From positions 1 through 54,554 of the IMG/VR virus record IMGVR_UViG_3300033998_000134: 54,554 bases of DNA; one strand, 5' to 3'. Source of the DNA: a virus. The notes beneath the pieces were generated by a model that made no database searches, had not been told where the DNA came from, and saw only the letters and a list, made by a program, of their open reading frames with translations. Made by a program: the position numbers and the translations under genes. This document shows positions 1,380-54,554 of this stretch, piece after piece (the stretch's first letter is position 1; each line of letters opens with the position of its first letter).

Positions 1380-1425
1380 CAAATGTGAGTATTATAATGT
1401 TCATCGACGTTTGTTAGAGTTAATT
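1380..1425 (-). promoter_or_regulatory. Putative phage late promoter A (portal)
   Basis: Minus strand reads AATTAACTCTAACAAAC (1425 to 1409), then exactly 25 bases, then TTTG (1383 to 1380). The same 17-nt element and 25-base spacing occur at three other minus-strand transcription starts (15294 to 15339, 37166 to 37211, 52126 to 52171). Twelve of 17 positions are invariant. The TTTG matches the distal half of the Bacteroidota -7 box, while the upstream element replaces the usual -33 box. The late-promoter function is inferred from position. Confidence 0.65.
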
Positions 1426-10400: not shown

Positions 10401-13258
10401 TTGATATTCTGCTCCGGCGTCATCCGTGATTGATCTATTTGACCCTTATTTTCCCCCTCCAGAATGATCGGTAGTGATTGCATGAATGCCTGCTTTTCCG
10501 CCTCCACATCTTGTCCGGATGGTTGTTCCGTCTCCTCTGGTAATGCTATTTGTCCTTTTGTTTCTTCTTTTCCCGTTTCTGTGACATTTTGCTCTATCTG
10601 TTCGGCTGGCATACCCTCATTTTCGGGAGAAATTTCTGACATTCTGTCAACTTCTTCCTGTTTAGCTTGCTCTTCCCGATGTACTCCTATGACATTTACT
10701 GACGGTACTTCTTTCTCGTCGATAACGATAATACCGTTATTTCTCAGGCTCATATCATCCACCGTGCCGGTTACGATATTGCCTTTTTCATCGGTATAGT
10801 CCACTTGTACGCCGTTATCCACGCCCCGAAGATTATCCTCATCGATAATCATTCTCGGCTCAACGATAACAGGGGCGGGGATGCCATCAACCATAACTTG
10901 ATAATTACCAGCATCGTCAACCCCCTGTATCTGACCCATGAGCGAGATATTCCCATCTGAGGTGAATCTTATAATCTCTCCCTTATCATAAGGACGCACT
11001 TCATCGTTTGCCTGCCTGTTCACTACCTCAGCAGTTTTTGCTGCCGTAGCCTCTTCTATTGCCTGTTCAGCCGGAACATTTTCAATGATATCTACAAACT
11101 TCGGATCAATAACTTGCCTCTTTCCGTTGCTGTCAGTGTAATAAATTTCTCCCGATTTATGTGTGTCGATAGATCCGTCTTCATGCAAAACAATATTCCC
11201 TTGAACAAAAGTAGGCTCCTCTACGCCCGGTATCTTTGCGAGGATGATACTGTTTGTCTCCGGATTTATTGTCTGCTGTATTGTTTCTTGTGCTTCCTTT
11301 TGTACTTGTTGTATCTCTTCGCTTTTCCCTCTCTCGAGTCCGTTTTTTGCTAAATAGGCTAATGAATATTTTATTAAAGCGTCTGATTGTTTCTCGTCAA
11401 ATTCGTTCGATGTAGCGATTCCGCTTATTGCTTTGGATATCGTTTCGGTGTCCTGTCTGTTGTTATCTATGATTCCATTTACCAACGATATCACATCTTT
11501 GGCCTCATCTCCAAAAATTGATTGTATGTTTGTAAGATTATTTGTATAGGCCTGATTGATCGATCTCTTTTGCTTTTTGTCGTTGTGTTTCGCTGCGGCA
11601 TACCCTCCTGCATTTATTGCTGCATATGGAAGCTGAATAACACCGACCACCCCCGCCGTGATAAGCTGTTTGCGAGGATCAACAAGGTCTTTCCATTCAG
11701 CTTGTTCGTCTCCAAGCATTGCATGACCTGCAGTAGCAAATTGCTCTTCGAGAAATTCAACTCCAGCTCCCTGAATACCTGTTGCCTTCCGTATCTTCTG
11801 AATAGATGGAGGAAGATTCTTAAATTCCAAGCCCGGAATAAATTGTCCGACACGCTCTGATCCTACCTCGACAAGATTGGATGCAAAGGCGTTCGCATAG
11901 CTGTCGAGGAAACCGCCAGGATTCTCTGCGTTTTTTTCTATGGCAGTGGCCAGTGTGGATGGCATGATTGCTGTCTGCAGCAAGCTCTCAGATACCTCTT
12001 TTCCTGCGATCTTTAGCACTTTTTCAGTGCCTTTCGTTGCGGCCTGTTTGGCAGCCTGTCTTGCTCCTTCTCTTAACAATCCTTTGCCTATTGCACCCGC
12101 AGCACCCTTAGCAATTCCTCCTGCTCCTGCAAATTGCGCCATAAACTCAAGCGATCCCGTTGTCCCTTGTGCTATATCCTGCGCAATGGTTCTGTCATTC
12201 TGATGCAATGAGGCGTATTGCGATAAAATATCTTCTGATCTGCTTGCGATAGGGCCGCCTGTTTTTGGCGAAAGTCCTTCAATAACATCACCAATACCTA
12301 ATGTGCCGATATTGTACAATGATTCCGGAAGCCGTCTTCCGAATTCACGAAGAAATTGAGATACTGCATTTCTGTCCTTGTCTTTTACGGCCGCCTGCAA
12401 CATCTTTAATTCGTTCAGGTTTTTCATGGCAAGGTCAAGATCATCCTGCGTGGCTATCTTGTCGGCCTCTTCAACATCTTTCGCCTTAGCTGCGTCTATT
12501 TTTGCCCTCTCCTCACGCGGCAACCATGACGGATTAACGCCGTATCTTGTTCCCGGAACTCCACGCCCTATCAGCTTTTGTCTCGCTGATGATTTTTCCT
12601 TTATTTCCTTTTCCAGATTTGCTATCTCGGCATCGAGTTGTTTGTCGAGCTGCGCAAACGATTCTTTCCTTTTTTTGTCGTATTCCACAAAGCCGCGCCC
12701 GGATGGTGTGTTTGCAAGAAAGTCTTTCAGGCTCTCAAGCTCATCCGGCTTTTCCTGTTGCGGTTTTGCCGGCATACCTGCATATCCTACGGGGACGATT
12801 GGGGTCATTCCTTTTGGCCGGCTCTTTGCCTTTATCTGATCGTATTTTTTTTGCGCCAAATCGGTAAGCGGTACGTTTTCGGTATCCTCCCACCTGTCAC
12901 GGAACAACTCCGGATTATCCTTATATGCCCCGTATTTTGCCGAAAAACTGATCTCGGGATCATATCGATGCACATTTAGTACATCTTTGGCAACTTCGGG
13001 AATCGACGCATTTTCCGGGAGCGATACTGATCCGTGCAGGCCTGTTAAGTCCGGCTGACGCAGTTTGATTTCAGGTATTTTCGTCTTTCCTTCCTTTTCA
13101 CTACGCAGGGCTCTTTCTTCCTCTATTTGCCGTAGTGCTCGTTCATCCGCCTGTGTGGCATTCGGGAAGTATTGCTTAAAAATCTCAAGTTTGTCGTACG
13201 GAACTTGTCTTATTCGTCCGTTACCGTCATCGAAATATAATGTATCTGGCTGTGGCAT
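1424..13258 (-). CDS. Giant polyvalent virion protein (3944 aa): ART-like, JAB/RadC, zincin and LPD-type domains
   Basis: This one gene fills more than a fifth of the genome. Polyvalent proteins are multi-domain phage or plasmid proteins thought to be delivered with the DNA to counter host defences. Visible parts: hydrophobic segments near residues 370-400 and 530-560; long acidic low-complexity linkers around 850-1450; an ADP-ribosyltransferase-like segment near 1490 (GVFVTPSRMMAEDYA); a RadC/JAB-type metal-binding domain about 1790-1920 with HNHPSG near 1880; a conserved EEIQSDW domain about 2280-2660; a zincin metallopeptidase site HENFH near 2786; and a C-terminal region around 3550-3700 with membrane-like stretch AAILSSYALIGFISPLLAAM and DD-rich LPD38-like block. 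It is last in an operon behind two ejection-type genes (13268, 14635), so an internal virion role is likely. Domain limits are estimates; enzyme activities are untested. Confidence 0.8.
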   Translation of the reverse strand: MPQPDTLYFDDGNGRIRQVPYDKLEIFKQYFPNATQADERALRQIEEERALRSEKEGKTKIPEIKLRQPDLTGLHGSVSLPENASIPEVAKDVLNVHRYDPEISFSAKYGAYKDNPELFRDRWEDTENVPLTDLAQKKYDQIKAKSRPKGMTPIVPVGYAGMPAKPQQEKPDELESLKDFLANTPSGRGFVEYDKKRKESFAQLDKQLDAEIANLEKEIKEKSSARQKLIGRGVPGTRYGVNPSWLPREERAKIDAAKAKDVEEADKIATQDDLDLAMKNLNELKMLQAAVKDKDRNAVSQFLREFGRRLPESLYNIGTLGIGDVIEGLSPKTGGPIASRSEDILSQYASLHQNDRTIAQDIAQGTTGSLEFMAQFAGAGGIAKGAAGAIGKGLLREGARQAAKQAATKGTEKVLKIAGKEVSESLLQTAIMPSTLATAIEKNAENPGGFLDSYANAFASNLVEVGSERVGQFIPGLEFKNLPPSIQKIRKATGIQGAGVEFLEEQFATAGHAMLGDEQAEWKDLVDPRKQLITAGVVGVIQLPYAAINAGGYAAAKHNDKKQKRSINQAYTNNLTNIQSIFGDEAKDVISLVNGIIDNNRQDTETISKAISGIATSNEFDEKQSDALIKYSLAYLAKNGLERGKSEEIQQVQKEAQETIQQTINPETNSIILAKIPGVEEPTFVQGNIVLHEDGSIDTHKSGEIYYTDSNGKRQVIDPKFVDIIENVPAEQAIEEATAAKTAEVVNRQANDEVRPYDKGEIIRFTSDGNISLMGQIQGVDDAGNYQVMVDGIPAPVIVEPRMIIDEDNLRGVDNGVQVDYTDEKGNIVTGTVDDMSLRNNGIIVIDEKEVPSVNVIGVHREEQAKQEEVDRMSEISPENEGMPAEQIEQNVTETGKEETKGQIALPEETEQPSGQDVEAEKQAFMQSLPIILEGENKGQIDQSRMTPEQNIKYFEYQYGTDKALRAATKMVDNLKERIKKEQAKLDADPFNIAQNDLVENLLAQQKIYQDYTSNAAPVREDVQVAKSAPDENTNIEPVKESVTTKAPADVPEQATKPKEKRQAKVIQQGEQQEQAAIDENMTDADRFLNDIEKQKEAIRQEVEKMTPKQREEWWGEPQSLREYIMRELINGQRILWSDTPTSKGFGSHLGMKGKEKERRKYIGLLGSAKTNALTPEAFAHKVWEDVVSKGGENEIGVRFHNVDTMGVLDEVLDVLYTHYSKGQMISDINESRLEQIFNELDMQAGVAMSGAWDIDPNERSQNEILLELRSEAKDDEISTYEIEEYYVNQVTQDEFYEYFYKFVANNNDYDETGEVGNNQQDAGEGSVPADGEGRDTGSSVDNEGAEGTDRADEREAETPKESASPIGYGQNDQGGRGQNAEGVAGIMQEGTAKSLKQRIKETDAELKKKQFAIIQASNPMKDDIHTGIRSADEILTAEEAFSPLIESGDEASPDFTAADMAEALKSGQITVYSSYPIANGVFVTPSRMMAEDYAGGKNVYSARVPINSVAWIDETEGQMANIDETVNTESYTKQTTSSEKSQHGLLNEENKLTVNQKQKEQEEPLKVNQKENIKKQSVEQKENKDEPIDILKKAQETVGGEQQRRNIPVITEEEYLSMNGAPFMSGSEPALHMNIQDDANKKKNIGRVMGDMKENNERREKLRKEYAEKVAKGEIRPPSRTELLIATAQGHPDNESTQAARRLLERQGINWERPSDNNLVVNEKGATLAKNKPNEKRKQKAINLQINWDEENGDVSAKRDEAFGADPETRDVQRKAGYDPAIDNRITNMERLLINRGHLDFVGNPLTGPVKITDANDVAFLFKNLERAQSENVFVVLAKDNGEYRVLYLTTGSSTSSIVDTKLIAPAAKDFRATKMWMVHNHPSGKLEPSVQDISVHRNLEQLGEVLGISVMPSIIINLDSGKYAKFSEWSRTTIDTPRGPAQGEPVRVDVYSFDRQMLYTPFSEKQKIKSSVDVARLLSQQKRGTVDKIHALIIDRANNINRYVLIDGNVSTDELNKILLEEVGRHGENVILSTNGIQLDFKRIKKALNIVGADLLDVITIKQDDDIINNYESLYELGLLADEQAGYEPRQSENVPGATYNGLMFHVVDEAGYYSTVEDALEKIKQEKGTPEQFKAMLLKNGAKQAELDWMGWDETFTGKSVTKAEIQDWINQNKIEISEVRKEKNEPLTEGEIIQREQDIYINADIATREKFGIDEPIERWDEYYKGDADEDILNEIAAKNGYSDYKKMFDAMDLYYEDLVYEELSELDRSREDSTKYSYYVLPGGEKYNELLLTMPHKISEKRRRYEELRAKEKMTESERREFSDLVNDDVDISDEKFRSLHFDEPNIVAHIRFDERTANGERILFLEEIQSDWAQQGKRHGFKTGKDKDVLRAEKALEESNKNLEKAINRRHELGLPVGAGSTEQKMFGSEIWLLGNNKEYIQLNRELEKVRNNKDYNSIQQRMEEIKKEYDKANSDYQKALDDVELDSKVLEKMKELSIISERYKVPDMPFKKTDQWITLAFRRMMRYAAENGYDRIAWTTGEQQADRYNLSKQVDRIVIDEENGQYSIMAVPKGGQELENIATATKENLSDYVGKEIALKAINEGGGDFRGDDLKVGGEGMRAFYDQIVPSVVKKISKPFGVDIETIELPETGAQQSIPVTDDMRGYAENGMPLFSIAQMSEDIDTLLNAAKTPQEKTKIVSDMVDELESRYRKSVDTVVLPTKKDVFESLRMMGADSELLSMAEKTKAKLNGVFFNGVIYLNSSSLDKAKNVAEVWAHENFHAWISDKKELLVPLINNLDDNFLNANLHAYYHKLDKEEKVNELLAFAVGRIFTGRDIARIKEADVILPVIIKYLDYVTEGEFSQSGARVRSGRKSDADALRDNQRGIPKGERINRPGEVSYQPQQEDGTVLPGYGGVSGVGGIAESAYAPMPRQKEGQSLEDYSREVSDWYFKQRELPNQPLFSVSDVADRTGSKMPEDLRKEYDVKYDRFFTRFREAWEDTFLPVKDFLDLLRKNGVEIAEYNDFYKQATHLQGKNDSQLKIFKDSYQHPITLAVSALVNKGFKYRDIENYVFAKHGIERNEYMRNAAIEEWENNHPEAEEDERAAFIKSLPNDYAGITALEEELGQPAEMFIDSFENKAGEEDINRLWAAINNATHWTLTKQYQTGMINKEVYDDLMNRYRYYVPLRGHDKETAEDRWDYTPDMGTFFTAPLVRAKGRRSRAESPFAFIEQMAHSAIVQGNKNTLKQSILRLAQKENGGLMSATKTWKVNIGTKEKPIWEQQSAPYSEDLDTYLQNQQLFEERMQQLKKEGMAYQGRARLDIGDLFIKPKQAEQHEIRVYQNGISYTVYINANPAIAKAINGANRVDKAKNMSWILNATRNMAANFTTRNPLFVMTNFSRDYIYSTTMLLAKETPEFMLEFQRNLPSAANALRRYERGNVDLNKKSDQYLYEYMINGGKTGFSHIFELDRVAKSLEREAQKGGKKNFADHARAIIDVIDMFNEVAENTTRLSVYITSREHGKSIIDSINDAKNITVNFNQKGAGSSVGKNNFEKFIFSLAGYVRPYYLFSNAAIQALSNIVKVTNKHPVKMAAILSSYALIGFISPLLAAMIGGDDGEDSYMKLSDWERQNNWCVLLPNGSFLKIPLPQELRIFSRMGDNIYQAYTGRKDILQVLMDTMFSVSDLLPMNPLGAAEISFAEIAPDFIRPLAQIKWNTNFMGSRIYNEWANKNMPGYLKARTNKKGEYYAPNFMVDWFMILDHLTGGDGVKKGVISLNPDITNHLLRGYFGGLYTIAEQGVGIASEVYNFTKTGELDIKVRETPLRAFYADKNDLQLQSSGISSRYYDIYDKVIESRRRAKAYTEKVQQGEMGIDEYSRVMSELNMPKINAIYDRIKEIKRIEREMKEMNPQQQKQAEEMIFDLRKEVVELNGNQ

Positions 13259-22437: not shown

Positions 22438-24375
22438 CTAAAAAAATGTTTTTTGCAGTAAATATGGTTCGATGTTTTTATTTGCGATATTGCAATATTC
22501 CTTGCTCATCTCGCTTCCGATAAATTTCCTATTAGAACGAATTGCGCATATAGCCGTAGTACCAATCCCCATGAATGGGTCGTATATCACACCTCCCTCA
22601 GGGCATCCTGCCAAAATGGGTATTTTAATCAAGTCTTCATTATAAGCCGCATAATGATTTGCGCTGGTTCCTTTGGTGGGTATATCCCAGAAGTCTGACA
22701 CATCACCCGGATTCGGCCCTTTTGTTTTGCTTAATTCTTCATTAAGTCGGTCATATCCTTTGTATTCTCTTTCCTTGCTTAGGTTATTGATTGACGAAGT
22801 AGAATATTCACCAGTGCTATACTTGTTATTATTACTGCCTCTCAATTTTCTTTTCACGCTTCCAATATTCACATTATTCCGTATTATATCCAGATCGAAA
22901 TAATACTTTTCTTTTTTTACCATGAAGAAAAAATATTCATGCTTCTTGCTAAACCGATCAGTCACAGATTCAGGCATGGCGTTACAATTATGGGTTAATA
23001 TGCCACTTGCTAATGCAAATAAATGTGACTCATCTTCAATTTCAATATCCCAAAATTTACGCCCATTACTCTTATTAATGGCAATAATTTCATTGTTGAA
23101 TTTATTATTAAGGTGTTTTGTTTTTTCAAACCTTATTTCTCCTCTATATCCATTAAATGATTTATCTCCATTTTTAAATATGCTTCTCTTAATACGAATA
23201 GATGTGTTTAATCTTGCGCAAATTGTTCTCAAATCATCAACAAAATATTTATTATCTGTAAATCCTAAACGATATCTATTATTTTTTTCATCATAATTTG
23301 CATCACCATCTAAATAAGATTTTAATACAATTTCTATGAATTTATTATCTCTTTGCCAGAATGATGTGGAAAAATGTTTACCTTTTGCTGTGTTACCAAC
23401 AATAAATTCATCAATTATGGCATTTAATATCTTACCACTCATATTGATAGTCATAGTATTACCTTTTAGATAATAATTATTACATTTGCCATTAAATAGT
23501 TTTGCAATTTTATTACAATTATCCAATCTTTCTTTTTCCTTACAATGAGAAGCTATTTGTATTATATTTCCACTACGACTACCCTCTGCCATATATAATC
23601 CAATAAACCATGGCACCAAATAATTATCTAAAATATCTTCTTCTCTATTGTTATCTGGCAATATTGTTGATTTTAAAATATCGCCAACTTTTAATTCACC
23701 GGCTCTCTTAAACCCATTTTGTGTCGGGAATATATGTTCTTGAGTACATGGAATTTTTTCTCCGCTTCTTAATACTATTTCTAATGGATTTTTAAAGTTT
23801 TTATTTTCATAAAAACATTTTACTTTGCTCCATTTTTCACCAGTCCATAATTCAACGTTTTTTAATCTTGCAAGGTCTTTAATAGTTTGAGGGAAAGTGC
23901 CCTTACTTGTTTTGGCGTATAATTTAAGTCCACCACCCAAACACTTAGCCCAGATGATATCATTTCTTACAATCCATCCTCTATCTTCGCACCCTATTGC
24001 AAAGCGATGCGGGATGAGAAGAAGGCATTTACCCGGCATTGATTTGCCTTTTACGAGGTTTCCACTTGTAATTCTGTGTGTTCCTCGAGAGATACCGAGA
24101 TTTGATCCGCTTTGCGTTGAGTAGGTATCCCCCAGATTTACCCATACAGTGCCGCTATCTTTTAACTTAGGATATATGGCATCCATAAGCGACCAAAGAT
24201 GCTCCAAATACTCCTGAAATGTAGGCTCTAACCCCCATTGTCCTTCGTATCCATAATCTCTCAATTGCCAATAAGGAGGGCTTGTTATTACGCAATCGAC
24301 ATAGTTGTCCGGTATTCGTGACAGCGTATCCAAGCAGGGCTCATTGTAAATCCTATTTTCTTCTATTGTTTTCAT
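22438..24375 (-). CDS. DNA methyltransferase (beta class, N4-cytosine/N6-adenine) interrupted by an intein
   Basis: The 645-aa precursor yields a 326-aa methyltransferase after removal of a 319-aa intein (residues 145-463). Start is the ATG at 24375, overlapping the stop of the RuvC-like gene (ATGA); the open frame upstream belongs to that gene's other frame. Catalytic motif IV is TSPPYW (residues 31-36); the AdoMet-binding motif I, DPFMGIGTT, is at the C-terminus (residues about 599-607), giving the IV-before-I order of beta-class enzymes. Joined exteins read IIWAK-CNAMPESV, the usual IIWxKxNxxPESV segment. No restriction enzyme gene is nearby, so this is an orphan phage methylase, probably protecting phage DNA. 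Confidence 0.9.
   Translation of the reverse strand: MKTIEENRIYNEPCLDTLSRIPDNYVDCVITSPPYWQLRDYGYEGQWGLEPTFQEYLEHLWSLMDAIYPKLKDSGTVWVNLGDTYSTQSGSNLGISRGTHRITSGNLVKGKSMPGKCLLLIPHRFAIGCEDRGWIVRNDIIWAKCLGGGLKLYAKTSKGTFPQTIKDLARLKNVELWTGEKWSKVKCFYENKNFKNPLEIVLRSGEKIPCTQEHIFPTQNGFKRAGELKVGDILKSTILPDNNREEDILDNYLVPWFIGLYMAEGSRSGNIIQIASHCKEKERLDNCNKIAKLFNGKCNNYYLKGNTMTINMSGKILNAIIDEFIVGNTAKGKHFSTSFWQRDNKFIEIVLKSYLDGDANYDEKNNRYRLGFTDNKYFVDDLRTICARLNTSIRIKRSIFKNGDKSFNGYRGEIRFEKTKHLNNKFNNEIIAINKSNGRKFWDIEIEDESHLFALASGILTHNCNAMPESVTDRFSKKHEYFFFMVKKEKYYFDLDIIRNNVNIGSVKRKLRGSNNNKYSTGEYSTSSINNLSKEREYKGYDRLNEELSKTKGPNPGDVSDFWDIPTKGTSANHYAAYNEDLIKIPILAGCPEGGVIYDPFMGIGTTAICAIRSNRKFIGSEMSKEYCNIANKNIEPYLLQKTFF
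22987..23943 (-). other. LAGLIDADG intein inside the DNA methyltransferase
   Basis: Starts at Cys145 (CLGGGLKLYA) and ends ...GILTHN before the +1 Cys464. Block B has CTQEH (TxxH), block F/G has LFALASGILTHN with the penultimate His and final Asn, and Cys follows as nucleophile: all splicing residues are present. The centre has two LAGLIDADG-type motifs, WFIGLYMAEGS and VLKSYLDGDANYD, so the homing endonuclease is probably intact. This insert is visibly more AT-rich than the flanking methylase. It lies in a conserved segment of the host protein, as inteins normally do. Confidence 0.9.
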
Positions 24376-24863
24376 ACTTTTACCTTGATTTTTAATTTTG
24401 CGTGAATAGCCACCAGCAGGACTGCATCTCTCACATCCTGATTGCACCGCTTGATCGGCGCCAGTCCGTTGTATTGAAGTATATAGTTCAGCTCTTCGTG
24501 CGTGATCTTCCCGTCGCGTCCTTTCCACCCCTTATTGAAAGGTTTCTGCTCTATAACCTCAAGCCCGTAATGCTTTGCCATCTCAACGATATGCCGCCCT
24601 GTTTGGTGGTTGCTGCCTACATTCTTTGCGATCTTCTGCGCTCTTACTCCCTTTGGGTCGTGATAGTTGCTCTTCTCGTTCAGCCATCCCGCCTCTACTA
24701 CTACCAGAACGTCGCCCGGGAGTGTTGCAAGCAAATACAGTTTCTCGAGTAGTTGGGGAAACGGAAGTGCTTCTGCCGAAAGTTCATGGTCTCGGTATAT
24801 ACATATACCGCTCTTTCCCGTGTCCGGATCGATACCGACAATGATTTTATTTGGTTTATCCAT
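24372..24863 (-). CDS. RuvC-like Holliday junction resolvase, 163 aa
   Basis: RNase H-fold nuclease that would cut recombination junctions or branched replicating DNA before packaging. Acidic residues are in place: D12 and D14 in GIDPDTGKSG, E57 in LVVVEAG, and a late acidic pair in NQDVRDAVLLVAIH (residues about 141-145). A conserved lysine/basic stretch KPFNKGWKGRDGK lies between. Length fits RuvC proteins. It is next to the methylase (4-base overlap) and in the same operon as RecT. Confidence 0.75.
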   Translation of the reverse strand: MDKPNKIIVGIDPDTGKSGICIYRDHELSAEALPFPQLLEKLYLLATLPGDVLVVVEAGWLNEKSNYHDPKGVRAQKIAKNVGSNHQTGRHIVEMAKHYGLEVIEQKPFNKGWKGRDGKITHEELNYILQYNGLAPIKRCNQDVRDAVLLVAIHAKLKIKVKV

Positions 24864-37165: not shown

Positions 37166-37211
37166 CAAAAATAAACTCAAGATGGTAGTCATTCGTGTGT
37201 TAGAGTTAAAT
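37166..37211 (-). promoter_or_regulatory. Putative phage late promoter C (136-aa gene)
   Basis: Minus strand ATTTAACTCTAACACAC (37211 to 37195), 25 bases, TTTG (37169 to 37166), preceded by TATT so that the -7 box is TATTTTTG, a full match to the Bacteroidota consensus. The element overlaps the terminase stop codon. Same element and spacing as promoters A, B and D. Confidence 0.7.
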
Positions 37212-39311
37212 ATCGCTCATCCCGGCTGCAACTTTCCTGTTTACCATAGGTTCGGCATTCTCCTCCACAATTACAGGCATTGGCATCGCGTAGGCAACGT
37301 ACATCCCGATCATTCTTGTCATGAGAATATCGTCGTGATGTCCTTCTTTCGCTCCATAGCTTCCATTTTCTTTTTGCTCATACATCCGTGCTTCGTTCAG
37401 CGCCTCTTCGTCACGTTCAACGTAACCACCTTCACGAATCACCGAGATGAAGTTTGAGATGATCATCGGCTTTGTAGATCGGTTGGTATTGAATCCCCAC
37501 TTTATCGGATATCCTTCTCTTACCTTATCGGCCGACGTGCGTGTATAAAGGTTGGCATAATGCGCTTTTATGGTCTCGAAGATTAACTCTGCGTCATCAT
37601 CTTTTACGTCACTGTCGTATGTATTGCTCTCAACCACAAGTAGTGCGTCGTTATAAAACTTTGCTACCTGAGCCGCAATCCATATCGATATATCCTTGTC
37701 GATATGTCCCCGAAATTGAGCAACGATCTCCGGCTTTTCTCCGTCTATCAAAGGGAGGCGGTCAATTACGGTTATAACGCCCCAGTCCGCTTTATCACTG
37801 ATTCCTTTTTGCGGATCGAATATAACCACATAACGGTGTCTGACGTTCAATGATGAGGGGTGCCTCCAAACCATGAGCTTGTTCTGGGTTTTTCTGAGCC
37901 TAAGTTTCACGTCACTGCTCCCGTATGCCTCCATCGCTTCCGGATCATTGACGAAGTGAATGTTGCTCATAATTCCCTTGCGTTTGCTCGGCTCAATGTT
38001 TGCGATCTGCGGCATCTCGTCTGCTACCAGCGTCCCGATGGCCATCGGCGGACGACAATCACTTCTTAGAGCCTCTATGTCCTCCGAGCGGAACACGGGC
38101 TTGCCGGAATCCTGGAACGCTTCTATATCGTCCGATGGGAACTCTTGCCTCATCTCGCTTATGGATGACATTTCGCCCGCCTTGGCCCGATACCAGTTTA
38201 TTTTTTCGAGTGTTACCTCTTCGTTGTTCTCGAACAATGACAACTCGTACTCGCTGAGAGAAGAAACGAATTTACGGATATCCCCCTTTTTCTTCTTTCC
38301 GTTGAATCCGTAATAATCGGTAGTGATAGGTTCGCTGTAATTCGGGTTGTAAAACCAGGGAAGAAAAATAGGGGTATAGGCACTTTCACCTCTCTTTGCC
38401 CTACTGTATTCGGTCTCGAAGTAATCGCCAAGCCCGTTGGCTGTGCTCTCGTAAAATACTGCAGTCCACGGCACCAGCTTCATAGTGCCAATGATGGATG
38501 AGAGCAGGGCGCTCGTTTTCTTCATATCCGTGTCAGGATAAAAGGCCACCTCCGAGAAGTGGGCCAGTTTTGGGTTTTGCGATCGTACACTATCCGGCTT
38601 TTCTGCCGATCCTACCGTAATACGGCAGCCCCTCTCTTTGATCTCCTTTATATTTAAAGTTTGATCAAAATTGCTTATTTCGTAGCGTACACCACCTATG
38701 GGCATCATCGTCTCCATACTTCTTGTGTACATGCTTCTGATATTCTTTGCTGCATCGTTCACGTGAGCGCAAACAACACTGTTCCATCTTTTCTTTTTCA
38801 CTTTCTGTATCCAGGAGAACAGCATCTGTATGTACGTCGATATGCCGTGTTGGCGGGCTTTCAATGTGATGATGCGGACAGGCTTTTCGTTCTCGATGTC
38901 GGCCATCACTATTGCGTGAAATTTCCTTTGGGCGCGGTTCATGACGAACGGGATCAGCTCTCCGGTCAGGGCATCTTCTATTGTTTCGTACATGCGGAAG
39001 TAATACTCCGGATCATACGATATCCTGATCTCGCAAATATCGATCCAGCACTTCTGCAGCTCCTCTCGGTCAAATGGCACTTTGTTGGCCCTGTATAGTT
39101 TTTCGATCGATTTATGTTTTGCGACCTGCCTGATTATGGGGTTGTTTAGCATCTGGCGCGGGATGTATATCAAAGGATAAGGTGCGTCTGTTATTGTCAG
39201 AGGCACCCTATCTCCATAACATCCTACGCCAATAATAGGATCATAAGGTTCGTTTATTTTGATTGTTCTATTGGCATTTTCAGTTAATATATGCTCAACA
39301 TCCTTATCCAC
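37206..39311 (-). CDS. terL: Terminase large subunit (TerL), 701 aa
   Basis: ATPase-nuclease motor for DNA packaging. The ATPase domain has a Walker A-like LKARQHGISTY (about residues 152-162), as in crAss-like and T4-type TerL without GKS, and a Walker B region LAHFSEVAF near 250. The C-terminal RNase H-like nuclease shows VIFDPQKGISDKADWG (first Asp), VVESNTYDSD and HHDDILMTRMIG. Length is large for TerL but within range for this group. It is the last gene of the long late operon after the lysis cassette. Confidence 0.9.
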   Translation of the reverse strand: MDKDVEHILTENANRTIKINEPYDPIIGVGCYGDRVPLTITDAPYPLIYIPRQMLNNPIIRQVAKHKSIEKLYRANKVPFDREELQKCWIDICEIRISYDPEYYFRMYETIEDALTGELIPFVMNRAQRKFHAIVMADIENEKPVRIITLKARQHGISTYIQMLFSWIQKVKKKRWNSVVCAHVNDAAKNIRSMYTRSMETMMPIGGVRYEISNFDQTLNIKEIKERGCRITVGSAEKPDSVRSQNPKLAHFSEVAFYPDTDMKKTSALLSSIIGTMKLVPWTAVFYESTANGLGDYFETEYSRAKRGESAYTPIFLPWFYNPNYSEPITTDYYGFNGKKKKGDIRKFVSSLSEYELSLFENNEEVTLEKINWYRAKAGEMSSISEMRQEFPSDDIEAFQDSGKPVFRSEDIEALRSDCRPPMAIGTLVADEMPQIANIEPSKRKGIMSNIHFVNDPEAMEAYGSSDVKLRLRKTQNKLMVWRHPSSLNVRHRYVVIFDPQKGISDKADWGVITVIDRLPLIDGEKPEIVAQFRGHIDKDISIWIAAQVAKFYNDALLVVESNTYDSDVKDDDAELIFETIKAHYANLYTRTSADKVREGYPIKWGFNTNRSTKPMIISNFISVIREGGYVERDEEALNEARMYEQKENGSYGAKEGHHDDILMTRMIGMYVAYAMPMPVIVEENAEPMVNRKVAAGMSDI

Positions 39312-39940: not shown

Positions 39941-40513
39941 TTAAATTCCATCTCTCATATACTTATCGTAAGCCTTTTGCATAGAAATGTTGTAGGGTTC
40001 TCTGCCCCACTTTTTAGCCATTTCTTTATACTTCGCTCCGTTATATCTGACTGCTACTGTATGCCAGTCTTTGCGCTTTAGAGCATCATACAATATCCGG
40101 TCCGTGTTGATAAACTCTGCCATCTGGAAGATCTGCCTGTCTTCTCCTTTCTTTGCATCGTTCCACATCTCTCCGACATTTGAGTATCCGAGTCTTTTGT
40201 AGTGATAACCCATTACTTGTCCCAAGCCTATACTCGTGCTTTTCATTGCAGATTCCGGGTTAATGGCAAATGCATCATTAAATGCAAGCCATTCCTTCGA
40301 CTGCACGTCAACTTTGTTGACGCTCCATTTGCCGGAAGGTGCATAAGGCTCGTGTTTACGAAACCAGCTCGGTTCAAATTGTATAATAAGCTTGCCGTCA
40401 TCATTAAAACCTTTTCCTCCAGACTCTACGTCTATGAATGCCGCAAGAGCTTCGGGTTCAACGTCTATTCTGCATGCTTCATATTTTATCGATATTTGTT
40501 TGATCTTGTCCAT
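39941..40513 (-). CDS. N-acetylmuramidase endolysin, 190 aa
   Basis: Start set at ATG 40513 (MDKIKQISIKYEACRIDV); an open frame upstream overlaps the holin gene. The region EALAAFIDVESGGKGFNDDGKLIIQFEPSWF (about 23-53) matches the DUF3380 muramidase family: catalytic Glu in VESGG and the LIIQFE strand. Later SIGLGQVMGYHYKRLGY and the C-terminal VRYNGAKYKEMA support the call. It degrades peptidoglycan at lysis and lies between holin and spanin candidates. Confidence 0.8.
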   Translation of the reverse strand: MDKIKQISIKYEACRIDVEPEALAAFIDVESGGKGFNDDGKLIIQFEPSWFRKHEPYAPSGKWSVNKVDVQSKEWLAFNDAFAINPESAMKSTSIGLGQVMGYHYKRLGYSNVGEMWNDAKKGEDRQIFQMAEFINTDRILYDALKRKDWHTVAVRYNGAKYKEMAKKWGREPYNISMQKAYDKYMRDGI

Positions 40514-41021
40514 TGTTTTCTTCCTCTTCTTTCTTCTTGTCCGATTCTTTGAGTATCTGCTCGATGTCAATATTCTTGCCAACTTTTGACTGAATCTCTC
40601 CAATCAGTTGTTTTCTGAATAACTTTAGAAACGGAGTGTTTGGTCGAACAATCAGCATTGAAGCGCTCATACTCCAAAGCTCACATACTGCCGCAAACAT
40701 GCCTATTGTTTTTACAAGCACGAACGGCGCATTTTCATGTACTACCATTTCGATCGACATTACTCCCAGCAATGTAAAAGAATAGATTGCGATTTTTTTA
40801 ATAGTCTCCCGTAATGCGTTTGATAATATAAACTTCTTTAGCTTTATTGCAGCCAAAATTCCCCATATAAAGTCAGCCATTACCGCCATTCCAACTACTA
40901 TAAATGTCCACATCTCCGGTTGTATAAATGTTATTGATGCCGTTAATAATGCAATAAACCATCCATAGGCCGTGCTAAGCGCATTGCCTATATGTGTCAT
41001 AAATCTCTCAAACCAATTCAT
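40479..41021 (-). CDS. Holin-like membrane protein, 180 aa
   Basis: At least three hydrophobic helices (STAYGWFIALLTASITFI, MWTFIVVGMAVMADFIWGILAAI, IAIYSFTLLGVMSIEMV) followed by a charged, cytoplasmic C-terminus with runs of E, as in Bacteroidales phage holins of the phage_holin_4 type. It would permit endolysin release at lysis time. The start of the endolysin overlaps its 3' end by 35 bases, so the two are coupled. Confidence 0.75.
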   Translation of the reverse strand: MNWFERFMTHIGNALSTAYGWFIALLTASITFIQPEMWTFIVVGMAVMADFIWGILAAIKLKKFILSNALRETIKKIAIYSFTLLGVMSIEMVVHENAPFVLVKTIGMFAAVCELWSMSASMLIVRPNTPFLKLFRKQLIGEIQSKVGKNIDIEQILKESDKKKEEEENNGQDQTNIDKI

Positions 41022-42112: not shown

Positions 42113-42499
42113 TTACTTTTTCATATCGATCAGTTGATGTGCTGCATCTGCAGCTATCTCTCTCCATTCTTCAAACTCCATGAAGGCAGTTATATCTTCT
42201 TCGATGGACGGATCCGTAATGCCTGCTCTCTCCTTCAGTAAGGCGGCAACGGCATTGTTTAGGATGGCAAATTCTTCTTTGGGAGGGTAAACATACTCTA
42301 TGATCTGACTTTTTATGTGTCCATAGTCGATATGACCGGTGAGAGGTATATTGTAACCCATATACACAACCTTGTCCTCACCGTCCTCATCCTGCTTGAT
42401 GCGTTCTGTGAACCCAAAGCGAATAACCTTTCCTACTGTATCGTACAGCGAGGGTATTTGATCATACTCGCTTGTCTTGAATTGTTCATACTTTTTCAT
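42113..42499 (-). CDS. DGR-linked hypothetical protein, 128 aa
   Basis: Overlaps the reverse transcriptase stop by four bases (ATGA), so it is made together with it. The sequence (YDTVGKVIRFGFTERIKQDEDGEDKVVYMGYN, then EEFAILNNAVAALLKERAG) is mixed alpha/beta and does not look like the four-helix Avd accessory protein of other DGRs. No Avd gene is present between template and RT, so this is the only candidate RT partner here; alternatively it is a tail accessory gene. Not recognised. Confidence 0.55.
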   Translation of the reverse strand: MKKYEQFKTSEYDQIPSLYDTVGKVIRFGFTERIKQDEDGEDKVVYMGYNIPLTGHIDYGHIKSQIIEYVYPPKEEFAILNNAVAALLKERAGITDPSIEEDITAFMEFEEWREIAADAAHQLIDMKK

Positions 42500-43905
42500 A
42501 ATTGTTGTTCTTTATCTTTGTGAATTATTTCTCCATCTTTCTCGTAAACGTCGCTACCGGATATGCTCAATATTGATGTTCGGTCATAGTCAAAATCATA
42601 ATGCTTGTTGCCTGACCTGTCTGTCATTACGGTCCTGAAAGATGTTACGTTATGCTCTTCCAGCGTCTCGATAAAGTTTTTAATTCTTATCGAGTTTATG
42701 ATCAATCGGTATTCCTTTTCATGGAACCTGATCAATAAGACCCATCTCCCGGATCCTTGCGATGTACGAATGTCTTTCTCCCATTCCAGTATGTCGATAA
42801 CATCATTTATCACCACTGACGCACCTATCCTCGGAACATCGAAAAATTTCTTGCCGTCCCTTCCTGTTACACTGTTGTTCGCTTTTATTCCTAATCGCTT
42901 TATATCTACTCCTGTCATCTTATAATATAATCTTTTGCAGTGCTTATTCCCATGTTTTAACATGCCCCAAGCTGCTGCGTCAATCTCTTTTAATCGCTTC
43001 TTATTGGTTGCGCGGCTTCTTCTTTTTAGCCAGGCCGATTTGTTTCTCTTCCTCCAGTATAAATCTCCACCCGGGTAAATCATGAATCCGAGATAACTTA
43101 ATCCAAACGACACTCTGTGGATTTTCGGAACATGGGTTTTAAACCCCATTTCGGCCAGCCTTTCATTTGCCTTCTTCATGAATCTTTTAACCTCTCCCTT
43201 TGTCTTTCCTAAAACTACATAATCATCCATATATCGGATATAGAACTTCATTCCCATTTCCTCTTTCGCCCAATGATCAAAAGACGAAAGGATCAGATTT
43301 CCTATTATCTGGCTTGGCCTTATACCCAATGGGATTCCTATATCCCCAAATCTGTTTATCGGCTCCATCATCGCATCGATATAGCTCTGATCCTTGTAGA
43401 TCGATTCTAATGTGCGTCTTAACAGGTCGTGCGGGATACTTTGATAAAACTTACGGATATCTCCCTGTCCATACCATACCGTTTCCTCAGGGTATTCTCT
43501 CAACCATCGTTGCACTCTTAATGCTCCAGCTATCTGTCCTTTTCCTTTCCGGCTGGCATAGGTATCATAGATGAGATTTTTCTCTACCCTCTTTTCGCCG
43601 GCGGTGACCAACGATTGATGGTAAATGTGGTTCGGATGAAAGTTAAGTTTTGATATTTTACGCACCTTTCCTTGTACGCTTGTCATATCCTTATGCTTGT
43701 ATTCATCCGTACGTATTGTTTTATCAATAAGTCCGCTCTGTATCTCACACAGATTCCTAATCCTGTTATGCAGATGCGATTTTACATAATGTCGTTTTAG
43801 CTTGCCTTTGGTAGCCGACTCTTCGGCTTTCGTCAAATTATCCCAATTATACGTCTTTCTGTACGTGTATCCTTCTCTTTTCATTATTTTCGTTGCTTGC
43901 TTCAT
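42496..43905 (-). CDS. Diversity-generating retroelement reverse transcriptase, 469 aa
   Basis: Copies the TR RNA (44085-44188) into mutated cDNA for the VR of the 448-aa gene. RT motifs: first Asp in YGQGDIRKFYQS (D149), IPLGIRPSQ (191-199) in place of the usual QGxxxSP, and the catalytic RYMDDYVVL (YMDD at 225-228). A YDTYASRKGKG block precedes them, as in DGR and related RTs. It has a C-terminal extension of about 200 residues. In-frame ATG at 43884 is an alternative start. TR, VR and target gene all lie immediately upstream, which defines the DGR. Confidence 0.9.
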   Translation of the reverse strand: MKQATKIMKREGYTYRKTYNWDNLTKAEESATKGKLKRHYVKSHLHNRIRNLCEIQSGLIDKTIRTDEYKHKDMTSVQGKVRKISKLNFHPNHIYHQSLVTAGEKRVEKNLIYDTYASRKGKGQIAGALRVQRWLREYPEETVWYGQGDIRKFYQSIPHDLLRRTLESIYKDQSYIDAMMEPINRFGDIGIPLGIRPSQIIGNLILSSFDHWAKEEMGMKFYIRYMDDYVVLGKTKGEVKRFMKKANERLAEMGFKTHVPKIHRVSFGLSYLGFMIYPGGDLYWRKRNKSAWLKRRSRATNKKRLKEIDAAAWGMLKHGNKHCKRLYYKMTGVDIKRLGIKANNSVTGRDGKKFFDVPRIGASVVINDVIDILEWEKDIRTSQGSGRWVLLIRFHEKEYRLIINSIRIKNFIETLEEHNVTSFRTVMTDRSGNKHYDFDYDRTSILSISGSDVYEKDGEIIHKDKEQQL

Positions 43906-44084
43906 TCTCTACGGAGCGTTCAACATCTAAGTTACTAACACCGTAATGGTGATGCCCTGAGGCTATTCACGCAAGGTTATTTTGTTTCTTCTGCATGTAG
44001 CATACGGCTACACCGATGAGGCTTTGACTGGTCGGATGCTTTCGTATGACGCACTAATCACATCCTGATAATTATTTGAAGTAT

Positions 44085-44188
44085 GGCGGGCTCCGATGTT
44101 CGACCACGAGTTCGTCCAGGCGTTGTTCGAGTTCGAGCAGGCGAGACCGCAATTCGCACCGTTCTCAGCGTTGCCGCCCCAGAGCCAC
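44085..44188 (-). repeat. DGR template repeat (TR), 104 nt
   Basis: 104 bases matched to VR 44330-44433. In the coding sense TR is rich in AAC codons (seven). It differs from VR at 10 positions, nine of them TR adenines (on the minus strand), out of about 20 adenines, and only one of 84 other bases. This is the adenine-specific signature of DGR mutagenesis. It is located between the target gene stop and the RT start (180 bases from the latter). Confidence 0.92.
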
Positions 44189-44244
44189 TTTCCAATCATA
44201 TGCCTGCCACCCGGATCAGGTGGACTTTTATCTGTATCAATCCA

Positions 44245-44266
44245 GCAGGGGGACGCTTCCCCCTGC
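44245..44266. other. GC-rich hairpin between VR and TR (cruciform or terminator)
   Basis: GCAGGGGG (44245-44252) and CCCCCTGC (44259-44266) form a perfect 8-bp stem with a 6-base loop, starting 11 bases after the target gene stop. DGRs need a hairpin/cruciform just downstream of VR for efficient retrohoming; this one has the right stem length but a longer loop and stands 63 bases from VR. It may also end transcription of the target gene. Confidence 0.55.
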
Positions 44267-44276
44267 ACCCCCTAAT

Positions 44277-45623
44277 TTACGCGAGCATATCGCCTCCGCT
44301 GATTTCATTCACATCCCCAAAATAAGCAAGGCGGGCTCCGATGTTCGACCACGAGTACGTCCAGGCGTTGAACGAGAGCGAGCAGGCGAGACCGCACTTC
44401 GCACCGTACGCAGCGGCGCCGCCCCAGAGCCACACCTGACCTGCAATATTGTAATAGAAGTAGTCGTTATATGATACGCCGGCTTGCACTGCATATGGAA
44501 ACATAAACGCAGCCTGCTCTCCCATCGCTATTAAATTCATTTTATGTGCAGTGGTTGCTGTATTTGAAATGGCTGCACTATGGCGATGTGCGACGAAAGT
44601 TTTGATCTTTTCAAAATCTGCCATAGTGGGGGCCGATGTGGCCGGCATAAAATTGTCTCTCCATACCACTACATCGTTATTGATCGAACACATGTGTCCG
44701 TCAAATTCCCAAAACTGTCCCCACGGGTTTTCAAAGGAGAGAACCTTTACGGAGTTGCAGGTAGCCCCTGCCGAATCGAGCACCGATGATTTCCCGTCCG
44801 CTGTACCGAGACTGAGTGTTTGACCGGTAACGATAGTATATTGGTTTGTTGCTACCGCACTTCCCGTACCGTCAAGACCTGGACCCCATACCTTCGTAGC
44901 ATCAGCTAGCTCACACTCCTGGCTACCTCTTTGTCCATAAGCGGCCATCATATACCATAACAGCATGTTTCTGAAATGCACTCCTGCCAGCCCGTAGCTT
45001 TTACCGTATAATTGTGCGCTATCCCAAAATTGTTTTACTGTTTTCGATCGGGTTGGTACGACATTGGGAACCGATCGTAGCCGTCCGCTTCCATCAACCC
45101 ATCCCTTGAACATGCCAACATACTGAGCGGGCTCTGTCCACCCCGGTAGATCCAAAAGTGACAACCATAACCGTTGTATCGTTTTGCCGGCTATCTCAAC
45201 CGTCTGAATATAGCATCCGGTTCTGGGAATCTTACCCATGAAGTTGGCGTTGGCCAAAGCTGCTACCGCACTTCCGGTCACAGGGTCAACGGCCGGTGAT
45301 CCATCAGCGAAATACCGGTTATCCTCTCTTGACAGCTCGGCGAAGTTTCCCGTTTGATCCATTACTCCTGCTTTCCACTCTCTTACCCATAGATTGAACA
45401 TCTCCCTGTTGCCACCTACGTTCACTTTTAGCGGAGTTGATGCCGGTTCGTTTACGTCAATGTAAAAAGCTACCTGGTTCAGATAAAGGTCATTATTTTT
45501 GATAATGCCTTCTTTTAGGTCTTTCATGGTTGTGCGGCCGACTGTATTTCCGAAAACACCTAAGATCTGATCCTGATCCGTAAAGTCGGTGACCAACTGC
45601 GCTTGTCTTAATTCTTTATTCAT
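44277..45623 (-). CDS. DGR-diversified variable protein (putative lectin-fold adhesin), 448 aa
   Basis: The C-terminal region (residues about 397-432) is encoded by the VR and reads WLWGGAAAYGAKCGLACSLSF followed by NAW, a YSWSNIGAR end and 17 more residues. The WxWGG...CG...GAR frame is typical of DGR targets with a C-type lectin-like fold, in which the varied residues line a binding face. The N-terminal part is beta-rich, probably a virion attachment region. It is preceded by a 348-aa structural gene, so it is likely a tail-tip or fibre protein for host binding. Confidence 0.85.
   Translation of the reverse strand: MNKELRQAQLVTDFTDQDQILGVFGNTVGRTTMKDLKEGIIKNNDLYLNQVAFYIDVNEPASTPLKVNVGGNREMFNLWVREWKAGVMDQTGNFAELSREDNRYFADGSPAVDPVTGSAVAALANANFMGKIPRTGCYIQTVEIAGKTIQRLWLSLLDLPGWTEPAQYVGMFKGWVDGSGRLRSVPNVVPTRSKTVKQFWDSAQLYGKSYGLAGVHFRNMLLWYMMAAYGQRGSQECELADATKVWGPGLDGTGSAVATNQYTIVTGQTLSLGTADGKSSVLDSAGATCNSVKVLSFENPWGQFWEFDGHMCSINNDVVVWRDNFMPATSAPTMADFEKIKTFVAHRHSAAISNTATTAHKMNLIAMGEQAAFMFPYAVQAGVSYNDYFYYNIAGQVWLWGGAAAYGAKCGLACSLSFNAWTYSWSNIGARLAYFGDVNEISGGDMLA
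44330..44433 (-). repeat. DGR variable repeat (VR), 104 nt
   Basis: 3' part of the 448-aa gene. Varied codons compared with TR: AAC to GCC, GAG to GCG, AAC to TAC, AAC to CTC, AAC to TTC, AAC to TAC, and one non-adenine change (AAT to AAG). The 27 bases at its 3' end (44330-44356) are unchanged including adenines, the position expected for the initiation-of-mutagenic-homology (IMH) site. Confidence 0.92.
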
Positions 45624-53334: not shown

Positions 53335-53841
53335 TCAAAAAAAGTTGCCGCCCGTTCTCGACCGTGCTATTCGTTTTTCCAGATATGCACGGCCGTCCAT
53401 AAGTGCATTGTCAGCCCTTGCTTTGTAAAGTGCTGCATCTTGTGCATCCTTCGTCTCCAGCCATCGGTACATAATGTAAGACACAAGGAATTCTCTTGTT
53501 TTTATACTCACCTGTTTGTTGTAAAACTGATTATAATCATCGGGCATCAAAAGCGAGAAACTAAAATCCCGATCAATCGAGAAGTTGGACTCCTCAAAGA
53601 AATACTGCTCGTCCGTCTCAGGTGCATACTGCATGTATGCTCCGTATCTGTCCATCACCTTTGCCTGTGCATCAAAAAACAACTCCCTGAACTTGCGAAA
53701 ATATTCTTCGTCAAATACAAACTGCTCGAAGAGACTCTGTCCGTCACCTGCAATCTTCCTTTCGGCATACAGTGACGATTCCTGTTTAACTGCTTCGAGA
53801 ATATGATCGTGCGAAAATATGTAAGGTACTATTATACTCAT
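53335..53841 (-). CDS. Hypothetical protein downstream of portal, 168 aa
   Basis: Overlaps the portal stop by four bases (ATGA), so it is co-translated. Helical and acidic in the middle (FEQFVFDEEYFRKFRELFFDAQAKVMDRYG), with EFLVSYIMYRWLETKDAQDAALYKARAD and a basic end (KRIARSRTGGNFF). No family recognised; a head or portal assembly role is suggested only by position. Confidence 0.6.
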   Translation of the reverse strand: MSIIVPYIFSHDHILEAVKQESSLYAERKIAGDGQSLFEQFVFDEEYFRKFRELFFDAQAKVMDRYGAYMQYAPETDEQYFFEESNFSIDRDFSFSLLMPDDYNQFYNKQVSIKTREFLVSYIMYRWLETKDAQDAALYKARADNALMDGRAYLEKRIARSRTGGNFF

Positions 53842-54554
53842 TGCCGTAACCCTTTATTGATTATTTCCATTGCCTGCGGGTTTGCCTGTGAATAGATCTG
53901 CTCTGCCACTTCTGGATTGATACCTTGCTGCATTGCCTGATTTTGCGCTTCCGTTTGATCTGCTTCTATCGATTGCAGCAGCTTGTCGGCAAACGGGAAT
54001 GCACCGTTCTCGAGCATCTGCTTCAAATTAATTGCTCCTGCCTGCCAGAACTGCAATAGCATATCGTTGATAATTTGACGGTACGATGCCGTCGACGTGC
54101 TCTCCGTAATGCTCAAATCAAACGATACGTCTCTCACAAGCTCAGGGTTGTACGTTATGGACTTGATTCGATTGCTGCTTCCGTTTATGTTTATGATACG
54201 TTTTTCGGTGTAGTACTGCTGTACGAGTTTCAGGTTCTTTAAATCCCTCGACTCCCTTAATTCGCGGAATGATTCAAATATCTCCATAAGTGAAGAGGAT
54301 GAGTTCTGCGTCTGTTGTAAATAAAGCGATGACGGCGTCCCCGATTTAGGTGCCTGTCCCTGCAGTGCTCCGGATACGCCGGACACTTCTTCCATCATTT
54401 TGATTTGAAGTGCAATCATATCCGTAATGCCTACAGGAACGGAAGCGTTTTTGATCTGTTCGATCTTGGCATTTGGCATCGTTTTAAGCGCATCGCTATT
54501 ATAGAGTATTAAACCATCCACTCTCGTCCATTCATCCCGCAGCATCTCTTGTGT
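53838..54554 (-). CDS. Portal protein, C-terminal part (continues at position 1)
   Basis: C-terminal part of the 653-aa portal gene. The frame from 54554 is the same as that at 127 to 1, giving ...MLRDEWTRVDGLILYNSDAL across the repeat, then IKMMEEVSGVSGALQGQAPKSGTPSSLYLQQTQNSSSSL, a segment common in portal proteins of this group. The C-terminal end is Gln/Ala-rich (EQIYSQANPQAMEII), likely in the barrel. Unique part is 53838 to 54427. The next gene (168 aa) is coupled by a 4-base overlap. Confidence 0.88.
   Translation of the reverse strand, partial: TQEMLRDEWTRVDGLILYNSDALKTMPNAKIEQIKNASVPVGITDMIALQIKMMEEVSGVSGALQGQAPKSGTPSSLYLQQTQNSSSSLMEIFESFRELRESRDLKNLKLVQQYYTEKRIININGSSNRIKSITYNPELVRDVSFDLSITESTSTASYRQIINDMLLQFWQAGAINLKQMLENGAFPFADKLLQSIEADQTEAQNQAMQQGINPEVAEQIYSQANPQAMEIINKGLRQ
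54428..54554. repeat. Right copy of 127-bp terminal direct repeat
   Basis: Identical to bases 1-127. See the left copy: this marks the closing overlap of a circular map and should be counted once. Confidence 0.95.

Follow-up and report, generated by a model that had tools for sequence, protein, structure and literature searches.

The region 42496-45623, on the minus strand of a window that comprises an entire IMG/VR record of 54,554 bases (IMGVR_UViG_3300033998_000134), is, we are confident, a diversity-generating retroelement (DGR) of a probably temperate phage. Its identity as a DGR was established by its anatomy together with the variation among close relatives, and the element is a previously unreported member of a little-described DGR variant. 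In the proposed mechanism, the reverse transcriptase (RT) would copy an RNA spanning the template repeat (TR) and its 3′ spacer while erring at adenines. Beginning at the initiation of mutagenic homology (IMH), the mutated cDNA would take the place of the variable repeat (VR) in the terminal part of a tail-tip gene; tail-tip residues encoded by AAY codons would then differ among phage particles. A domain of ~95 amino acids (a.a.) fused to the RT C-terminus would most likely do the helper work done by Avd in BPP-1. An earlier, sequence-only reading of the window had described the element and was silent on both this extra domain and the non-detection of Avd.

Every gene of the element is encoded on the minus strand, where the reading order is the target gene (45623-44277), VR (44433-44324), TR (44188-44079) and RT (43905-42496). 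The cassette order that had been proposed was borne out by intact open reading frames (ORFs) and by the position of VR near the 3′ end of the target gene. Over the 104 bases initially delimited as TR (44085-44188) and VR (44330-44433), the ten reported differences were confirmed, with changes at 9 of 20 TR adenines and at one of the other 84 bases, a T>G (Fisher P = 5e-7). The adenine-specific repeat runs six bases further, to TR 44079 and VR 44324, and gains two adenine differences there, so that 11 of the 22 TR adenines and 1 of the 88 non-A bases are changed over 110 nt (P = 1.8e-8). No third repeat copy or second VR was found elsewhere in the record, and no prophage copies carrying the same TR were found in bacterial genomes.

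The variation was then compared with that in L003 and L004, two other IMG/VR contigs with a 100% identical RT. The sequence-only reading had named in advance, as a check, that VR variation in relatives should be enriched at TR adenines, and this enrichment was found. Between TR and VR, 15/24 adenines versus 1/86 other bases were changed in L003 and 14/24 versus 1/86 in L004; P values for the window, L003 and L004 ranged from 2e-8 to 2e-11. The window VR differs from the L003 VR at 19 positions and from the L004 VR at 13, all at TR adenines except for one base in a codon where the window TR itself has changed. L003 and the window are 99.5% identical across 8,499 bases, and about half of their 39 differences (19) fall within the 110-nt VR and three within TR; the density in VR has a P value of 2e-25 (computed with 18 differences). 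TR is near-constant across the three phages, with a single differing codon, while VR varies at TR adenines.

The RT matched PF00078 (E 9e-18) and PHROG 1423 (E 5e-65), and its closest PDB match was the BPP-1 bRT. The YMDD motif was confirmed at residues 225-228, and the motif analysis, through which an inactive RT was to be recognized, found the motifs intact. The AlphaFold model of the RT (mean pLDDT 85.6) superposed on the solved BPP-1 DGR RT (8ub7) with a TM score of 0.90 over the target and an rmsd of 2.5. With 469 a.a., the protein is longer than the BPP-1 enzyme (328 a.a.).

The C-terminal domain matches PHROG 19665, a phage protein family of 105 residues with no assigned function. None of the members tested matched Pfam or NCBIfam significantly over this domain, and solved structures yielded no sequence match. 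Its predicted topology in the AlphaFold model is beta-beta-beta-alpha-beta-beta, as in the oligonucleotide/oligosaccharide-binding (OB) fold. A Foldseek search of the PDB gave no match at E<0.001; OB-fold proteins account for several of its weak best-ranked matches (TM 0.3-0.4). Among viral models the best matches were other viral RTs (E 1e-6), and a phage protein labelled "SsDNA binding protein" was matched with E 0.013. Since the structure searches support an OB fold weakly, we keep "OB-like" as a suggestion drawn from the model.

Searches with the Avd profiles PF22296 and PF05635 came back empty for the window and for 50 related viral records. As a positive control, PF22296 detected Avd in BPP-1 and ACA1; it found none in hankyphage or LoVEphage. 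The ORF at 42113-42499, directly after the RT, was considered as a possible Avd and rejected: it has no Avd profile match and weakly resembles the ORF following the LoVEphage RT, and ORFs in the same place in related phages are annotated DUF4376. A profile built from fused forms of the C-terminal domain detected a separate 98-a.a. gene directly after the RT in locus L005 (E 6e-7). We examined 172 RT loci, most of them gathered in two database scans with an alignment of RTs, to which phages were added; 126 of the loci had an adenine-type TR/VR pair. The domain was fused to the RT in 88 loci, encoded by the ORF after the RT in 40, located in avd's place (between VR and TR or immediately before the RT, as in BPP-1) in nine and absent in 35, proportions that are not representative of all DGRs because the loci were sampled with this RT family. 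None of the 137 domain-bearing loci had Avd, and the four loci with Avd alone all lacked the domain. In four bacterial genomes the domain matches equalled in number the DGR RT loci fetched from each, and in 60 Bacteroides genomes 7 of the 10 domain matches lay in RT-sized frames (434-466 a.a.), the other three being at DGR RTs. Small ORFs after crAss-like RTs, considered as another separate form of the domain, were rejected by the domain profile search. We consider it probable that the domain takes Avd's helper role in this lineage, the strongest argument being that some DGRs encode it independently where avd would lie and that it never accompanies Avd among the loci sampled. Somewhat more cautiously, we favor the broader reading that this OB-like domain is an unrecognized DGR accessory module replacing Avd across a large branch, mostly of Bacteroidota phages, in which it would be a separate gene at the avd site, a gene following the RT or, as in the window, a part fused to it, some RTs being split at the palm/thumb border with the thumb joined to the domain.

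Split RTs were found in two groups. Three overlapping ORFs make up the RT of six LoVEphage records and of one prophage (L188); those at L009:6178-7733 (LoVEphage MW660583) encode 275, 111 and 199 a.a., and the arrangement also occurs in L008, L015-L018, L188 and L189. The catalytic motif, YCDD, lies in the middle ORF, and the thumb plus the C-terminal domain in the third. In the five of six LoVEphage VRs that were comparable without gaps, 70/115 TR adenines versus 1/375 other bases were changed (P = 1e-52). L189, with 79% nucleotide identity in the region, has the same three ORFs, with the in-frame ATGs of the second and third at matching sites, and the LoVEphage-L189 dN/dS values for the three ORFs are 0.07, 0.02 and 0.06, ratios that are distorted by the overlapping frames. 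A second phage group has an RT split once, at the palm/thumb border (L192:2947-4348, L193:508-1921 and L194:2959-4351), with a conserved overlap and ATG, low dN/dS, adenine-type TR/VR pairs and a second part consisting of the thumb plus the C-terminal domain. The conserved ORFs and ATGs, low dN/dS and diversified VRs speak against decay or sequencing error, and the comparison argues for separate translation or frameshifting under purifying selection.

Several points weigh against the overall interpretation. Close relatives were limited to L003 and L004 in the collections searched, and it is from sequence comparison that we infer current activity of the DGR. The mutual exclusion of the domain and Avd (P = 0.0015) comes from a weak test without phylogenetic correction on a biased sample, and Avd could act in trans or be too diverged for detection. 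Finally, the TR codon AAT at 44152-44154 faces AAG in all three VRs, a difference for which adenine mutagenesis does not account.

The most serious alternative concerns one step of the mechanism and is compatible with the rest. The C-terminal domain might be a structural extension of the RT or an aid in binding cDNA or RNA, with the Avd function dispensable or supplied by the host, a reading that we regard as possible though less likely than a helper role. OB-like folds often bind single-stranded nucleic acid, and about 30 related loci had neither Avd nor the domain by the profiles used, both of which count for this alternative. So does the published crAss-like DGR that lacks avd (PMC7290462). 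However, 49 loci encode the domain as a gene of its own, which in nine occupies avd's position, and no fewer than four changes of the fused state are required by the RT tree, on which the window branch is long and its exact placement unsure; these separate genes and repeated changes argue against a passive extension and for a module that acts in trans.

We consider it improbable that the DGR has decayed, leaving the TR/VR differences as a frozen trace of past activity. The fixed AAT/AAG difference would fit decay. The adenines flanking this lysine codon (VR 44397-44399) have been rewritten independently in the three VRs, and in LoVEphage the corresponding codon varies freely (TCT, TAT, GAT, AAT); our guess is selection for lysine plus patchy conversion. 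Decay would also fit the change of TR codon 44104-44106 to TGG in the window, which removed two mutable adenines. This codon is AAC in L003 and L004 and AAT in LoVEphage, indicating that AAY is ancestral and TGG derived, and TGG is found in the window VR as well. Since adenine mutagenesis cannot produce C>G, the simplest reading is that the changed template was copied into VR, and the shared TGG fits a footprint of TR-to-VR transfer; the window thus offers a natural experiment, in which a template change is found also in the target repeat. This recent TR change already present in VR, the intact RT frame, 100% identical in three phages, and the three distinct VRs on near-identical backgrounds all count against decay. 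Least probable of all is an incidental repeat, with tail-tip alleles swapped among phages by ordinary homologous recombination. The L004 flanks are indeed mosaic, with some segments identical and others diverged, but imported alleles would be expected to differ at every base type, and the 16 differences between the L003 VR and the L004 VR are all at TR adenines.

The last 27 VR bases had been described as invariant and assigned to the IMH. This holds within the window, but L003 and L004 show variation at adenines of positions 82-91, and the stretch never rewritten across the three VRs is ~12 nt (VR 44330-44341). After this core come VR-specific fixed bases (44329, 44327) where TR has A, giving TTGC versus ATAC in TR, and a CTTGC-type VR end also occurs in LoVEphage and L029; the difference between the VR and TR ends is probably the boundary between IMH and IMH*. 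A 22-nt hairpin ~57 nt past VR, the sequence of which turned up in the two close relatives and nowhere else, is a candidate target-site stem-loop or terminator. A sub-threshold match to the Rfam Clostridiales-2 RNA (RF02937; 26.4 bits versus a gathering threshold of 58.6) spans this hairpin at 44199-44280 on the minus strand.

The TR-RT spacer of the window had no Rfam match at E<=1, RT-3 RNA included, and folding of the TR region gave no excess stability (z -0.02). RT-3 RNA (RF03068) was detected in the TR-RT spacer of hankyphage and of 5/7 relatives tested. Spacer matches to it lie at L014:4809-4958, L163:4828-4977, L055:4827-4977, L089:4821-4965, L151:4809-4978 and L174:4838-4990; the spacer at L186:4926-5009 matches RT-17 instead. 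These RNAs in Avd-less loci are probably DGR template-RNA spacers, and the same site in BPP-1 holds the Rfam Phage_DGR RNA (RF03022).

The target protein matches PHROG 5302, "tail protein" (E 6e-22), shares 29% identity along its entire length with the tail protein of LoVEphage, another VR carrier, and has no sequence match in Pfam or the PDB; we infer a receptor-binding role for it. The sequence-only reading had placed the element in a late operon, and its location in the tail/lysis module is supported by the genes around it: the minus-strand late cluster contains a portal gene (53838-54545) and tail-like proteins, followed by lysis genes and the terminase. The integrase and repressor also encoded in the window suggest that the carrier, a gut-type phage, is probably temperate.

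Elsewhere in the window, an N6/N4 DNA methyltransferase gene (22438-24528, minus strand) contains an apparent in-frame intein (PF14890, E 1e-7, under the curated cut-off), the putative intein sequence terminating in THN ahead of Cys. A polyvalent protein of 3,944 a.a. (1424-13258, minus strand) has a RadC-like JAB domain and LPD38.

Table 1 Features of the DGR and neighboring late genes in the window
Feature	Position	Strand	Remarks
Target protein, 448 a.a., tail/adhesin-type	44277..45623	minus	ORF; VR near 3′ end
VR, 110 nt	44324..44433	minus	89% identity to TR; hypervariable among close relatives
Probable IMH	44327..44341	minus	unchanged core in three VRs plus TTGC replacing TR ATAC
Hairpin between VR and TR	44245..44266	minus	8-bp stem GCAGGGGG/CCCCCTGC, 6-nt loop
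TR, 110 nt	44079..44188	minus	same in L003 and L004 apart from codon 44104-44106
TR codon AAT, facing VR 44397-44399 = AAG (Lys)	44152..44154	minus	sole non-adenine TR/VR difference, in all three VRs
TR codon AAC>TGG, window only	44104..44106	minus	same TGG at VR 44349-44351
TR-RT spacer	43906..44078	minus	expected 3′ part of template RNA, by position alone
DGR RT, 469 a.a.	42496..43905	minus	intact single frame
YMDD catalytic motif, RT residues 225-228	43222..43233	minus	Y225, D227 and D228 invariant in 58 RTs
RT C-terminal domain, ~95 a.a., residues ~345-440	42586..42873	minus	PHROG 19665 match
Holin-like gene	40479-41021	minus	lysis
Muramidase gene	39941-40603	minus	lysis
Terminase gene	37206-39311	minus	late cluster

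Avd is essential in BPP-1; to the question of how mutagenic copying begins and runs to its end in Avd-less DGRs, a conserved domain in avd's place or fused to the RT offers a concrete, testable answer. An RT that carries its own helper in one protein would also make for simpler targeted-mutagenesis machinery. HRDC and MSL are the sole accessory names besides Avd in PMC10053308, and the domain described here has no Pfam match. Bacteroides-phage DGRs and a crAss-like DGR lacking avd have been published (PMC6199706, PMC7290462, PMC12629997); neither the domain nor a split DGR RT was described in the literature searched, which did not extend to some key surveys (Wu et al. 2018, MyDGR, BMC Genomics 2024).

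Among known systems, the BPP-1 DGR resembles the window element in having the target gene with its VR, then TR and then RT on a single strand, repeats with adenine-specific differences, IMH and IMH* at the repeat ends and a common RT fold; it has been reconstituted in laboratory E. coli (PMC12875486). In contrast, BPP-1 has avd between VR and TR, a shorter RT without the C-terminal domain and the RF03022 RNA in its spacer, and avd, the trait of BPP-1-type, Avd-dependent DGRs, was not found in the window by profile search. The crAss-like phage DGRs (PMC7290462) resemble the window in their target-VR-TR-RT architecture, the lack of avd and a tail-collar-type target, but the C-terminal domain was not detected in the crAss-like RT loci examined (L020, L023, L024 and L027). 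The DGR of the Bacteroides hankyphage p00 (PMC6199706) is likewise without detected Avd and has the VR-TR-RT order and a 434-a.a. RT with the same C-terminal domain; the window shares this hankyphage-type trait, an RT that ends in a fused PHROG 19665-like domain. In 2018 a small ORF close to the hankyphage RT was proposed to be avd-like on the basis of its size and isoelectric point (PMC6199706); PF22296 gave no Avd match on that locus. The two elements differ in that their RTs are 27% identical and that hankyphage has a very large target protein and RT-3 RNA in its spacer, an RNA that was not detected in the window and is not established as essential for the hankyphage-type group. The DGR of LoVEphage/BI-TP1 has a TR 78% identical to that of the window, a homologous VR-bearing tail target and the same C-terminal domain, and differs in that its RT is distributed over three overlapping ORFs, as opposed to the single frame of the window.

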